Shown: positions 4,575 through 10,175 of the stretch, in pieces | Position numbering within the stretch: position 1 is the first letter of the stretch | Layout: every line of letters starts with the position of its first letter | DNA from: Salinigranum halophilum | GTDB taxonomy: Archaea > Halobacteriota > Halobacteria > Halobacteriales > Haloferacaceae | DNA length: 64,000 nt | Direction of reading: 5' to 3' | Assembly (NCBI RefSeq): GCF_007004735.1 | Contig: NZ_SSNL01000005.1 | Coordinates: 186,001 to 250,000 of the forward strand | Program-made: the position numbers and the translations under genes | The notes under the pieces: generated by a model | The model's database searches: none | What the model saw: the letters and a program-made list of their open reading frames with translations, nothing else | What the model was told of the DNA's origin: nothing

Positions 4575-6692
4575 ATGTCGACTGACGAGAGCGAGCCCGT
4601 CAAGACCATCTGTCCGTACTGTGGCGTCGGCTGTGGGATCCAGATCGCACAGGACGACGAGGGCGAGGTGAGCTTTCGGCCGTGGGGTGATGCCCCCGTC
4701 AACGAGGGGAGCATCTGTATCAAGGGCGGTGCCGCCACGCAGTCGGTCAACCACGAGGACCGGCTGACAGACCCGCTGATCCGCGGCGACGACGGCGAAC
4801 TCCACGAGGCCACGTGGGAGGAGGCGTACGACCTCGTCGTCTCGGAGATGGAGCGAATCCGGGACGACTACAGCCCCCAGGCGATGGGGTTTTACGGCTG
4901 TTCGAAGGCGATGAACGAGGAGAACTACCTCATCCAGAAGCTCGCCCGTCACTACGGCACCAACAGCGTCGACACCTGCACCCGGATGTGTCACGCCTCG
5001 ACGGTGTACGCGCTCAAGAACAGCCTCGGCGAGGGTGCGATGACCAACAGCATGGAGGACCTGGAGGCGGCCGCGGACGTGTTCTGGATCCAGGGCGCCA
5101 ACCCCGGCGAGCAGCACCCCATCGCCAACAGCCAGTACTTCCGGCAGGCGGTGCTGGAGGGTGCGACGGTCATCCAGGTCGACCCACACGCCAACAAGAC
5201 GACCCGGTCGTTCGATATAAGCGAGACCGACCGGCACATGCATCTCCAGCTCGAGCCGGGGACGGACATCCCGCTTTTGAACGTCGTCATCAAGACCATC
5301 CTGGAGAACGACTGGGTCGACGAGGAGTTCGTCGCCGAGCGGACGGAGGGGTTCGACCATCTGAAGGAGACGCTGGCGGACTTCGACAAGGAGGAGGCCG
5401 CCGAGCAGTGCGGCGTCCCGCTGGAGGACATCGAACTGGCCGCAGAGAAGTACGCGATGGCGAACAACGCCGCCATCTTCACCGGGATGGGGATGAGCCA
5501 GCACACCTGTGGGGTCGACAACGTCCAAAACGAGATCAACCTCGCGCTGATCACGGGCAACCTCGGCCGACCCGGGACGGGCGTCAACCCGCTCCGCGGA
5601 CAGAACAACGTCCAGGGCGCCTCCGACGTCGGTGCGATGCCGAACGTCCTGCCCGGGTACCGTGACGTCTCCGACCCCGAGGTTCGCGCGGACGTCGAGG
5701 CGGTGTGGGGCTTCGAGATCCCCGCCGAGCCCGGCCTGACGAACGTCGAACTCTCCCACGAGATCGGCGAATCGATCCACGGCCTCTACGTCATGGGGGA
5801 GAACCCGGCCATGAGCGAGCCCGATACCAACCGCGTCGAGGAGCGCCTCGAGGAGATCGAGTTCCTGGTGGTCCAGGACATCTTCCCGACCGAGACGACC
5901 GAGTACGCCGACGTCGTCCTCCCGGCTACCTCGTGGGCCGAACGCGACGGGACGGTCGTCAACACCGACCGCCGCACACAGCGGATGCGCGGCGTCGACA
6001 AGGTGTACCCCAACACGAAAGACGACCTCGAGATCCTCTGTGACGTCGGTACCCGTCTGTTCGGCGACGAGAGCTTCGACTTCGACGGCCCAGAGGTGGT
6101 GTTCGAGGAACTCCGCCAGGTCGCCCCCATCTTCCACGGCATGACCTACGACCGGCTGGGTGAGGAAGGCATCCACTGGCCCTGTTACGAGCCCGGCGAC
6201 GAGGGTGACTCCTTCCTCTACGCGGACGGCTTCACGACCGAGAGCGGCCGCGGGCAGATCGAAGGCGTGCGCCATCAGCCGCCGAAGGAAGTCCCCGACG
6301 AGGAGTACCCACTCATCCTCACCACGGGCCGCATCATCGAACACTACAACACGGGGACGATGAGCCGCCGGTCCGACACGCTCACCCGCGTCGAGCCGGA
6401 GAACTTCGTCGACGTCCATCCGAACGACGCCGCGACGTACGGCATCGAGGACGGCGACTACGTGACGCTCAAATCCCGGCGCGGCGAGATCGAGGTGGAG
6501 GCGCGCGTCACCGAGGACATCAAGGAGGGGACGGTGTGGACGACCCCGCACTTCGCCGATGCCGCGGGCAACCGTCTCACGAACGACGTGCTGGACGAGC
6601 GGGCGAAGATTCCCGAGTACAAGGCTGCGGCCGCCGAGATAGAGGTCAGTATCGACACCGACGCCGACGCCGACGCGCCCGCCGACGACTGA
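4575..6692 (+). CDS. fdhA: Formate dehydrogenase alpha subunit, molybdopterin oxidoreductase
   Basis: A 705-residue cytoplasmic enzyme of the bis-MGD molybdopterin family. Cys13, Cys16, Cys20 and Cys48 form the N-terminal [4Fe-4S] site. The segment CTRMCHAS carries Cys139-His140, which match the metal-ligating Cys/Sec and the catalytic His of formate dehydrogenases, so this is a cysteine and not a selenocysteine form. Cofactor-binding segments (GANPGEQHP, GTGVNPLRGQNNVQG) and the C-terminal MoCo cap follow. It oxidises formate to CO2, but no electron-accepting subunit is adjacent, so its partner is unknown. The C-terminus ends in an Asp-Ala repeat. MobA and a YqeC-like protein nearby fit a cofactor theme. 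Confidence 0.9.
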   Translation: MSTDESEPVKTICPYCGVGCGIQIAQDDEGEVSFRPWGDAPVNEGSICIKGGAATQSVNHEDRLTDPLIRGDDGELHEATWEEAYDLVVSEMERIRDDYSPQAMGFYGCSKAMNEENYLIQKLARHYGTNSVDTCTRMCHASTVYALKNSLGEGAMTNSMEDLEAAADVFWIQGANPGEQHPIANSQYFRQAVLEGATVIQVDPHANKTTRSFDISETDRHMHLQLEPGTDIPLLNVVIKTILENDWVDEEFVAERTEGFDHLKETLADFDKEEAAEQCGVPLEDIELAAEKYAMANNAAIFTGMGMSQHTCGVDNVQNEINLALITGNLGRPGTGVNPLRGQNNVQGASDVGAMPNVLPGYRDVSDPEVRADVEAVWGFEIPAEPGLTNVELSHEIGESIHGLYVMGENPAMSEPDTNRVEERLEEIEFLVVQDIFPTETTEYADVVLPATSWAERDGTVVNTDRRTQRMRGVDKVYPNTKDDLEILCDVGTRLFGDESFDFDGPEVVFEELRQVAPIFHGMTYDRLGEEGIHWPCYEPGDEGDSFLYADGFTTESGRGQIEGVRHQPPKEVPDEEYPLILTTGRIIEHYNTGTMSRRSDTLTRVEPENFVDVHPNDAATYGIEDGDYVTLKSRRGEIEVEARVTEDIKEGTVWTTPHFADAAGNRLTNDVLDERAKIPEYKAAAAEIEVSIDTDADADAPADD

Positions 6693-6781: not shown

Positions 6782-8668
6782 CTACGCGTCACGTCCCGGT
6801 TCGTCGTCCGTCGTCCCGGTCCCGTCGTCCCTGTCGGCGTCGGCCGCCGTCTCGGTCGGGACGGGCGTCGCGTCGTCGACGAGGGCTGCGAGGTCGAGCC
6901 GCTCGAGGAGTGCCCGGGTCGGTCGACCCTCGGTGTCCCACTCGCGGACCCGGTAGTACGTCGACAGCAGGTCGTCGAACGTGGCGGGGTCGACCCCCTC
7001 ACGGACGTCGTCCGCGGAGGGCTGTCGCACGGGCGTGGGGAGGCGGTCCTCGTCGCGGGTGAACCCTTCACGGACGTTGAACAGGCGCGTGAGCGTCCAG
7101 ACGCGCTCGCCGAGGTCGAGCAACTCGTTCGGCTCGTACTCCAGTCCCACTGCCGCCAGCAGGTCGGCCCCGTAGTCCGAGAGCGTCTCGCCGACGAAGT
7201 CGTCGGCGACGAGACACCAGAGCGCAGAGCGCAGCGTCTGCTCGGCGGTGACCGCCTCCGCACGCTCGGCGTGAGACCACGTCTCCGTCGCGAACACTTC
7301 CGCGATGACCGGCCGGGCGCGGCGGTGACAGGCCCCCCGGTCGCTCGTGGCGTACGCGAGCGCCATCGCCAGCGAACCACGGGGGTCGTACGCGGGGAGG
7401 GCGACCGACTTCACCGTGGGGACGAGGTCGTCGCCGCCGAATCGGGCGGCCGCAGCGTCGACGCCATCGGCGAGCGCGTCGGCGAGTTCGCCGTCGCGAG
7501 TGGCGAGACGGGTGAGGAGCGCCTCGGCCGCCCCGGGGTCACCGAACGCGAGCGGCGGCGTCTCTACGTCGTCGAGGTGCCCGGCGTCCGACGCGCGGAC
7601 CGCCCAGGCGACCGCGTTAGCGGCGCTGATGACGTCCATCCCGAGCCGGTCACAGCGGTCACCGAGTGCGACGACGGCCTCGAAGTCGTCGATACCGAGG
7701 CCGGCCCCGAGCACCATCGGTGTCGCCCCACGCGGGACAGTGGAGTGCCCGTCGTCGCTGACGGCGTCCTCGTGGTCGTCAGTGACGGCGGAGTCGGAGC
7801 GGGACGTCGAGACGCGGAAGTCGCCGTCACGCTCGCGGGCGGTCGCCGCGGCACGAACTGCGTCGATGCCGATGCGTTCGCTCCCCTCGAACCGGTCCGC
7901 CTGCCAGCCGCGGGTCGGGAGCACTCCGACCTCGTTGGCGAAGTCGAGCGTCTCCATCGTCCCGCTCGCGTCGAGCCAGCGCCCGGTGTCGCTCTCGTGG
8001 AACGCCCGGTCGTAGGTCTCGGCGACCGACACAGCCTCGGCCCCGACACTCGCCGGAGTGCGTGGGTCGCCGTCGGCGACGACCGCCTTGAGCCGCTTCG
8101 ACCCCGCGACGGCACCGACGCCGCCCCGTCCGGCCTGGTGGTCGCCGCCGTCGGTGCCCAGCGTCGCGTAGCGGACGCGGTGTTCACCGGCGGGGCCGAT
8201 ACAGGCGGTCGACCCGTCGAGCGCGCGGTTCGTCTCGGAGATGGACCGACCCCACTGGTCGGTGGAGTGGAGCGTCGCCGCTCCATCGGAGAGTCGAACG
8301 ACCGTCGGCTCCGTCGCCCGTCCTTCGACGACGACGGCGACGTGGTCTCCGAGCGCGTTCGGGAGGCGTGCGGCGAACGAACCGCCGACGTACGAGTCGG
8401 TGAAGGTCCCCGACAGCGGCGACTTCGTGACGGCGACACAGCGGGGTTCGCCCGGCAGGAGTCCGGTGAGCGGGCCGACGGCGAGAACGAGCACGTTGGC
8501 GGGCGAGAGCGGGTCGGTTCCTGGCGCCAGTTCACGATAGAGGGTGTAGGCTCCGATACCCTTCCCTCCGAGGAACCGACGACGGACCGACGGCGGGAGC
8601 GAGTCGCTCGTCACGGTGCCGGTGGAGAGGTCGACGCGAAGCACTCGCGTCGGTGGGCCCGAAGACAT
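6782..8668 (-). CDS. AOR-family oxidoreductase lacking iron-sulfur cysteines
   Basis: A 628-residue protein aligned along the whole aldehyde:ferredoxin oxidoreductase fold. The N-terminal tungstopterin domain is clear (RRFLGGKGIGAYTLY, GRGGVGAVAGSKRLKAV). Family members carry a C-x2-C-x3-C cluster site after the segment seen here as TRGWQADRFEGSE, plus a fourth Cys far downstream. Here the expected region (about residues 280-315) has no Cys and is a Ser/Asp-rich linker; only the distal Cys (ALWCLVADDF) remains. It could bind tungstopterin without the [4Fe-4S] cluster, or be a non-catalytic relative. It converges with fdhA and is followed by mobA on the other strand. Confidence 0.82.
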   Translation of the reverse strand: MSSGPPTRVLRVDLSTGTVTSDSLPPSVRRRFLGGKGIGAYTLYRELAPGTDPLSPANVLVLAVGPLTGLLPGEPRCVAVTKSPLSGTFTDSYVGGSFAARLPNALGDHVAVVVEGRATEPTVVRLSDGAATLHSTDQWGRSISETNRALDGSTACIGPAGEHRVRYATLGTDGGDHQAGRGGVGAVAGSKRLKAVVADGDPRTPASVGAEAVSVAETYDRAFHESDTGRWLDASGTMETLDFANEVGVLPTRGWQADRFEGSERIGIDAVRAAATARERDGDFRVSTSRSDSAVTDDHEDAVSDDGHSTVPRGATPMVLGAGLGIDDFEAVVALGDRCDRLGMDVISAANAVAWAVRASDAGHLDDVETPPLAFGDPGAAEALLTRLATRDGELADALADGVDAAAARFGGDDLVPTVKSVALPAYDPRGSLAMALAYATSDRGACHRRARPVIAEVFATETWSHAERAEAVTAEQTLRSALWCLVADDFVGETLSDYGADLLAAVGLEYEPNELLDLGERVWTLTRLFNVREGFTRDEDRLPTPVRQPSADDVREGVDPATFDDLLSTYYRVREWDTEGRPTRALLERLDLAALVDDATPVPTETAADADRDDGTGTTDDEPGRDA

Positions 8669-8754: not shown

Positions 8755-9375
8755 ATGCGCAGTGCCGTCATCGTCGCCGGGGGCCGCTCGACTCGCTTCG
8801 GCGACCGCGACAAGGCCGTCGCCGACCTCGGCGGCGTCCCGATGATTCGCCGGGTCGCCGAGCGACTCGCCGAGACGTGTGACCGCTTCGTCGTCAACTG
8901 TCGGGCGGACCAGCGCGACGCCATCGAAACCGCGATGGCGGGGCTGGACCCGACGGTCGCGCTCGACACCGACCCCGACAGGGGGCCCGTCGCCGGAATC
9001 GCGAGGGGGCTCCGCGCCGTCGACGCCGAGTACGCCGCCGTCGTCGCCTGCGACATGCCGTTCGTCGACCCCGCTTTCGTCGCGTACCTGTTCGACCGCG
9101 CGGCCGGCCACGACGCCGCCGTCCCGCGACCGGGGGAGTGGTACGAGCCGATGCAGGCCGTCTACCGGACGGGGGCGATGGCCGACGCCTGCGACGCCGC
9201 GCTCGCCGCAGCCGACGGGCAGGAGCCACGCATCCTCACACCCATCGAGGCCCTCGACTGCGTCGTCGTCGGGGGCGACGAGGTGGCCGCACACGCCACG
9301 AGCGACACCTTCGACAACCTCAACACCGCGGCGGAGTTCCACGCGGCGAACGAGCGATTCACGCCGGGCGAGTGA
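8755..9375 (+). CDS. mobA: Molybdenum cofactor guanylyltransferase
   Basis: A 206-residue nucleotidyltransferase that attaches GMP to molybdopterin to make the guanine dinucleotide cofactor needed by bis-MGD enzymes such as the nearby formate dehydrogenase. The protein begins MRSAVIVAGG and has the family signature GGRSTRFGDRDKA for GTP binding, then DRGPVAGIARGL and the metal-binding VVACDMPFVD. The length is usual for MobA. An ATG 21 bases upstream is in frame, but the family motif starts immediately after the ATG at 8755, so that start is chosen. Confidence 0.92.
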   Translation: MRSAVIVAGGRSTRFGDRDKAVADLGGVPMIRRVAERLAETCDRFVVNCRADQRDAIETAMAGLDPTVALDTDPDRGPVAGIARGLRAVDAEYAAVVACDMPFVDPAFVAYLFDRAAGHDAAVPRPGEWYEPMQAVYRTGAMADACDAALAAADGQEPRILTPIEALDCVVVGGDEVAAHATSDTFDNLNTAAEFHAANERFTPGE

Positions 9376-9392: not shown

Positions 9393-10136
9393 TCAGGCGA
9401 ACACCTCGACGACGGGGTCGGGGGAGAGCAGTTGGGTGAGGACGACCCGGTCGAGCCTGTCCGAGTGTGCGAGCGCCTCGGCGGCGATTCGCTCGCCGGT
9501 CGCGCGGAGCGCGTCGTCGTCGACCATGTTCACGACGGCGACGACGCGGGCGTCGTCGGGGACGTCTTTCAGTCCCCCCTCGGGGTTGACGAGGACGCGG
9601 GCGACCGCTGTGGCGTCGAGGTCGTCACCGACGGCGACGCCGGTGAGCGCGGAGACGCGTTCGGGGCGGTGGACGCACGCTGTGGACAGCGGTTCGCCGA
9701 CGACGCGCGCGCTGGCGATAGGGAGCACCGTGTCGGCCCGTGAGGGGAGCTGTGGCTCGCGGTCGTCGGGAGCCTTCAACAGCCGGTTCCGCGCCCCGTC
9801 GGCCTTCACGAGCACCGGCCCGTCGTGTGTGGTCGCGAGGTCGTCGACGACGGCAGGGTCGTAGCCGCGGTAGCGGTCGTCGCGCTCGCGTTCGGGGACG
9901 AGCCCGAGCGGCCACGCGTCGTCACCGTCCCCGTGTGCGGCGAGTGCCGCGACGGGGTCGTCCGTGACGACGACGTCGGACACCTGCTCGTCGAAGATGG
10001 GGATTCGTACGGTCGACGTCACGACGGCGCGGTCGAGCGCCGAACCGAGCCGGTAGAGCGTCGTCTTCTTGCCGCCAGCACCGACGACCGCGACGCACTG
10101 TCTCCGGTCCGCGGCGAGCGCCGAGGGGAGGTCCAT
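9393..10136 (-). CDS. yqeC: YqeC-like putative selenium/molybdenum cofactor accessory protein
   Basis: A 247-residue protein with a P-loop-like motif (GAGGKKTTLYRLG) near the start, followed by VVTSTVRIPIFDEQ, VKADGARNRLLKAP and the late segment VVNMVDDDALR. This order matches the YqeC family, found beside molybdenum hydroxylase maturation genes in bacteria and linked there to a selenium-dependent cofactor. Its reaction is unknown. Neither a selenophosphate synthase nor a hydroxylase is in the window; the local partners are mobA, fdhA and the AOR-like gene. The start at 10136 (MDLPSALAADRR) is preferred over an ATG 24 bases further up. Confidence 0.8.
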   Translation of the reverse strand: MDLPSALAADRRQCVAVVGAGGKKTTLYRLGSALDRAVVTSTVRIPIFDEQVSDVVVTDDPVAALAAHGDGDDAWPLGLVPERERDDRYRGYDPAVVDDLATTHDGPVLVKADGARNRLLKAPDDREPQLPSRADTVLPIASARVVGEPLSTACVHRPERVSALTGVAVGDDLDATAVARVLVNPEGGLKDVPDDARVVAVVNMVDDDALRATGERIAAEALAHSDRLDRVVLTQLLSPDPVVEVFA

Positions 10137-10175
10137 CGTCGGAGTATGCGTCGTCGGCACAAAGAAGGTACGGGC

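Follow-up and report, generated by a model that had tools for sequence, protein, structure and literature searches.

Enzymes of the AOR/WOR family (aldehyde:ferredoxin oxidoreductases) have a pocket that naturally holds bis-molybdopterin (bis-MPT) without nucleotides, and bis-MPT is the intermediate turned by MobA into bis-MGD, the cofactor of formate dehydrogenase (FDH). The [4Fe-4S] cluster of AOR Pf (1aor) has four ligands, Cys288, Cys291, Cys295, and Cys494, and two motifs bind the pterin. Roles have been described for Thr243, Glu311, Tyr312, Glu313, Tyr427, His448, Asn93, and Ala183, Glu313 being the proposed catalytic residue (PMC12096430, PMC13328260). The bis-Mo-MPT of the AOR-family protein YdhV can become bis-MGD via MobA, functional in TorA (PMC9103625). 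A 2023 review raised the missing haloarchaeal fdhD as an open question, noting that halobacteria possess FDH but no fdhD and that it is not known which proteins take part instead (PMC10609526).

The window analyzed here, the whole stretch of 64,000 nucleotides of Salinigranum halophilum DNA, presents in this order FDH alpha, a cluster-less AOR gene, mobA, yqeC, and cbiP. The features are as follows:

4575..6692, + strand: FDH alpha subunit, type 1, convergent with the AOR-family gene and 89 bp away (Pfam Molybdop_Fe4S4, Molybdopterin, and Molydop_binding; Cys-His and Arg motifs present)
6782..8668, - strand: cluster-less AOR/WOR-fold protein, 628 aa (ATG at 8668, stop at 6782; Pfam AFOR_N and AFOR_C; fold model)
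8755..9375, + strand: MobA-like molybdenum cofactor guanylyltransferase (Pfam NTP_transf_3; orthologous neighbor annotated likewise)
9393..10160, - strand: YqeC-family protein (Pfam PF19842, E 6e-29)

A sequence-only reading of this DNA had the AOR-family gene, its coordinates, and its strand right, and its naming of the neighbors as FDH, mobA, and yqeC-like is supported by the Pfam matches in the window. Both AOR domains match over the whole length of the protein (AFOR_N, residues 8-200, E 1.6e-59; AFOR_C, residues 216-593, E 1.5e-88), which places it in the AOR/WOR family. Its profile matches are AFOR domains only, with no PF02634 (FdhD sulfurtransferase) domain. The top PDB sequence match is 1aor (E 5e-81); among proteins of solved structure, those nearest in sequence are WOR83 of Haloferax volcanii together with AOR and FOR from Pyrococcus and its relatives. 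An AlphaFold2 model built on a 15-sequence alignment (mean pLDDT 81) is confident except for residues 256-313, where pLDDT falls below 50, and the C-terminal tail. This predicted structure has the AOR fold (TM 0.82-0.85 against FOR and AOR Pf), all nine of its significant PDB matches belong to the AOR/WOR family (TM up to 0.85), and the earlier claim that the whole fold is retained thus holds for the model. The protein belongs to the family by domains and fold and lacks the features that define the enzyme. Four more AOR-family genes of the same genome each have CxxCxxxC; therefore, the missing site is not an organism-wide property.

The residues that set this protein apart, or that it shares with AOR Pf, map as follows:

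7736..7813, - strand: segment in place of the CxxCxxxC region, residues 286-311, from the alignment; predicted disordered (pLDDT <50)
7724..7732, - strand: Arg-Gly-Ala, residues 313-315, in place of AOR Pf Glu311-Tyr312-Glu313, from the alignment
7634..7651, - strand: DRLGMD, residues 340-345, retained first pterin-binding motif, from the alignment
7325..7327, - strand: His448, retained second-shell residue (77/77 orthologues)
7214..7216, - strand: Cys485, taken for the distal ligand in the sequence-only reading; four residues upstream of Asp489
7202..7204, - strand: Asp489, aligned with AOR Pf Cys494, the fourth ligand; Asp in 77/77 of the clade

We aligned 78 non-identical haloarchaeal orthologues, 77 of which cover Asp489 and His448. 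CxxCxxxC is absent from the query and from all 78, as had been claimed for the query; in the alignment with 1aor, Cys288, Cys291, and Cys295 stand opposite a gap or unrelated residues, whereas every distant relative compared has the motif. The same loss in 78 non-identical orthologues from many genera excludes a frame error or a sequencing or assembly artefact, and with it the frame correction that could have overturned the claim. The distal Cys, said to be kept, is lost as well. The position of Cys494 is Cys in 6/6 sequences of a sister clade and in 15/15 canonical AORs, and the correspondence between MVACDF of that sister clade and LVADDF of the cluster-less clade anchors Asp489 there. Cys485, which is Ser in 56/78 orthologues, had been misaligned; four of four ligands are therefore lost, not three, and none is kept across the 78 orthologues. 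No alternative cluster site, anticipated near residues 280-315, appears within residues 262-330, a stretch free of Cys in 77 of the 78 sequences and with a single Cys in the remaining one. The supposed Ser/Asp-rich linker of about 35 residues is indeed Cys-free, but it is not a typical feature: the replacement segment has 26 residues in the query, about nine in most orthologues, and more in some lineages, so that a conserved Ser/Asp linker is rejected and the long form is for the most part a local, lineage-specific extension. The invariant Cys of the clade are 156, 339, and 447, the last two also frequent in ordinary AORs, and the clade alignment shows no new conserved Cys site, including one for sulfur transfer.

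The change is not confined to the cluster. The position of Glu311-Tyr312-Glu313 reads Arg (78/78), Gly (78/78), and Ala or Gly (78/78) in the clade, as opposed to the E-Y-E found in the sister clade and in almost every canonical AOR; this escaped the sequence-only reading, as did the replacement of AOR Pf Asp489 by Trp484. The second-shell set Thr243/Glu313/Tyr427/His448 is thus incomplete, with Thr, Tyr, and His kept and Glu313 replaced in 78/78. The tungstopterin loops, reported as retained, are so only in part. The first motif stands, with D340 in 71/78 orthologues (Asn in the remainder) and D345 in 78/78. Counterparts of AOR Pf Thr243, Tyr427, His448, Arg186, Asp338, and Asp343 persist in the clade; R181, T237, D345, Y427, H448, and many more residues are retained in query and clade alike. 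The second motif has changed (Trp484 in the query, Phe already in the sister clade), and Asn93 and Arg182, Mg/phosphate-site residues of AOR Pf, are not kept. Since these changes are also present in the cluster-bearing sister clade, they would be older than the Cys loss.

The cluster-less proteins form one clade with SH-aLRT 100 in a tree of 40 sequences, which bears out the suggestion that the Cys loss might mark a whole clade and rejects several independent losses. Its sister is a small haloarchaeal group whose cluster site is intact (support 99), and both are nested among ordinary AORs. The sister group (L057-L062), about 40% identical, keeps the four Cys and Glu313, and some genomes hold both versions.

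The distribution of the gene was charted in 259 haloarchaeal genomes (148 Haloferacaceae and 111 of other families), with absence called from candidate places among the matches listed and FDH types assigned by bit score. Among these matches, 146 of the 152 gene-bearing genomes also carry either FDH type (p~1e-41, uncorrected for kinship), i.e., the gene is present almost only where FDH is present, as expected of an FDH-dedicated maturation factor. Among the matches listed, Haloferacaceae divide into 100 genomes with both, 4 with the gene only, 2 with FDH only, and 42 with neither (p 9e-30), and the other families into 46, 2, 18, and 45, respectively (p 6e-14). The association persists with genus controlled (P 1e-14; nine mixed genera, whose genomes are non-independent beyond this control). 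The link to FDH is thus well supported. The gene is almost never found without FDH, whereas some FDH carriers manage without it: 20 genomes among the matches listed, 2 in Haloferacaceae and 18 outside, the latter mostly of one family. MobA was rejected as the partner governing this distribution, because MobA homologues also occur in gene-free genomes (e.g., G027).

FdhD (PF02634) was found in 0/259 haloarchaeal genomes and in all eight control genomes, and most of the FdhD-free haloarchaeal genomes sampled hold FDH-type proteins. YqeC (PF19842) is known in bacteria as a selenium-hydroxylase marker. Among the matches listed in the 259 genomes, 164 have both YqeC and FDH, 22 YqeC only, 2 FDH only, and 71 neither. 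YqeC therefore follows FDH more widely than the cluster-less AOR does, and it may be the main FdhD substitute. This almost one-to-one distribution suggests a role of YqeC in FDH maturation in haloarchaea.

Inheritance almost only together with FDH makes the cluster-less AOR a candidate for the helper that equips haloarchaeal FDH with its metal cofactor. Specifically, we tentatively favor the reading that this is an AOR that has lost catalysis and persists as a carrier or chaperone of the bis-molybdopterin cofactor in FDH maturation; this reading falls somewhat short of probable. We infer that an ancestor of the haloarchaeal members would have lost, once, the whole [4Fe-4S] site together with the Glu311-Tyr312-Glu313 acid-base segment, and that the resulting pseudo-oxidoreductase would then have been kept as a dedicated accessory of cytoplasmic FDH. 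It could hold and protect W or Mo bis-MPT or bis-MGD and pass the cofactor on to MobA, YqeC, or FDH; without cluster and proton relay, no aldehyde would be turned over during holding. For a much-kept pocket encoded beside mobA, yqeC, and FDH, carrier or chaperone is the best reading. Against it stand the differences at N93, at R182, and in the second pterin motif (differences that the cluster-bearing sister already shows), the lack of a new conserved Cys for sulfur transfer, and the wider tracking of FDH by YqeC. A strict need for the carrier is further countered by the 18 non-Haloferacaceae genomes with FDH and neither gene nor FdhD among the matches listed; the gene is therefore not strictly required, and a strict rule of FdhD replacement is weakened. 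The bolder proposal, an AOR enzyme turned cofactor chaperone with YqeC doing FdhD's job, which would make it the first AOR-fold maturation factor and a missing part of FDH assembly across an archaeal class, is less likely to be right than wrong by a clear measure.

The surroundings of the gene across loci count for the carrier reading as well. Within 8 kb of it, 62 loci show YqeC 31 times, MobA 24 times, and an FDH-type protein 34 times, although a few of the latter, 5-7 kb away, could instead be different molybdopterin oxidoreductases. The gene adjoins either FDH type (type 1, ~705 aa; type 2, ~1100 aa, whose N-terminal part is NuoG-like and whose gene lies beside a NuoF-like one). Both convergent and co-directional arrangements occur, and in several the spacing is ~20-100 bp. 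Linkage to FDH is also seen on named replicons of Haladaptatus, Halobellus, Haloterrigena, and Halomicrococcus, with formate-producing or one-carbon genes in the same island; in Halorussus, no FDH lies within 9 kb of the gene on its replicon.

Several species carry gene and FDH on plasmids or secondary replicons (L102-L107), in islands that also hold betaine/dimethylglycine, formamidase, formate-THF ligase, and SHMT genes. The ~1100-aa FDH with its NuoG-like ferredoxin part and NuoF-like neighbor (L068, L069, L102) suggests an NAD(P)-linked haloarchaeal FDH. A DUF7124 protein lies directly downstream on the same strand in 17/62 loci (e.g., L085:7134-7931), often with DUF7405 and an FlpD/Fer4 protein next in line; this second type of neighborhood is absent from the window.

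Co-inheritance and adjacency, down to ~20-60 bp in co-directional order in two genomes, would also suit a subunit without catalysis of its own, structural or regulatory, in lasting complex with FDH, and haloarchaeal cytoplasmic FdhA has been described without other subunits (PMC5437934). Such a subunit would however have to serve two FDH types of only ~44% identity from a gene that is mostly convergent with FDH rather than in one operon with it, and its strongly conserved residues sit in the former cofactor pocket; we consider it rather unlikely. The sequence-only reading had left three functions open, and of these the cofactor-binding relative fits best, because Glu311-Tyr312-Glu313 and the cluster are gone and, across the class, the gene goes along with FDH and yqeC. 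Both working-enzyme options, on tungstopterin alone or by another electron route, are less likely: the proposed aldehyde chemistry would be gone with Glu313, and the clade shows no newly conserved Cys site. A working tungsto/molybdopterin enzyme of formate or one-carbon metabolism, non-redox or differently wired, in the way of acetylene hydratase among MGD proteins, would explain the retained counterparts of Thr243, Tyr427, and His448 and the loci with formamidase, formate-THF ligase, dimethylglycine-type oxidases, and serine hydroxymethyltransferase; BamB and YdhV, which have lost second-shell residues, do other chemistry (PMC12096430). The constant partners are nevertheless FDH and yqeC rather than a single substrate pathway, the family members described in the literature surveyed all keep the cluster, and Glu311-Tyr312-Glu313 is lost, which leaves this alternative improbable. 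A role as a sensor or regulator reporting on formate or the cofactor, or in storing W or Mo cofactor, would be in keeping with a fold kept without its catalytic residues among cofactor genes, but with no DNA-binding or signaling domain and no fixed regulatory neighbor it has little to recommend it. Decay of a functionless paralogue, to which the faster divergence of the query might point (72% identity between the same two congeneric species, versus 93% for the FDH neighbor and 84% for the WOR83 paralogue), is largely refuted by 78 intact orthologues, dN/dS to congeners of ~0.3 (simple method), 175 positions with 95% or higher conservation among 40 orthologues, and the tight FDH linkage, and is hardly credible.

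The protein is, with YqeC, a named and testable candidate for cofactor insertion and sulfuration of FDH in the FdhD-free haloarchaea (PMC10609526). Labeling the clade members as aldehyde ferredoxin oxidoreductase domain proteins, as current annotation does, is likely to mislead. Neither a cluster-less AOR nor the present clade among the 92 WOR clades came up in the literature surveyed. As the AOR/WOR proteins described in the literature surveyed all keep the Fe-S cluster, a cluster-less clade conserved class-wide and inherited with FDH means that the fold can be repurposed.

Compared with FdhD, the protein would share the proposed role of FDH-dedicated cofactor handling; FdhD is nonetheless unrelated in sequence and absent from haloarchaea, and no counterpart of its Cys-based sulfur transfer loop was found in the query. 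The YdhV/BamB branch has lost second-shell residues, as has the query, and the bis-Mo-MPT in YdhV can be converted by MobA to bis-MGD (PMC9103625), but YdhV and BamB each acquired a Cys that ligates the metal, and their families keep the cluster. WOR4 of Pyrococcus furiosus likewise combines a change of cluster ligands with an altered second shell, and no activity is known for it (PMC12096430); it differs in that only one Cys is lost, an Fe3S4 cluster remains, and W is present. With the AOR/WOR family at large (AOR Pf, 1aor; FOR Pf, 1b25; haloarchaeal WOR83, 9q1t), the query has in common both Pfam domains over the full length, the fold (TM 0.82-0.85), and some pterin-site and second-shell residues; it differs from all of them in having no [4Fe-4S] ligand and Arg-Gly-Ala/Gly in place of Glu311, Tyr312, and Glu313.
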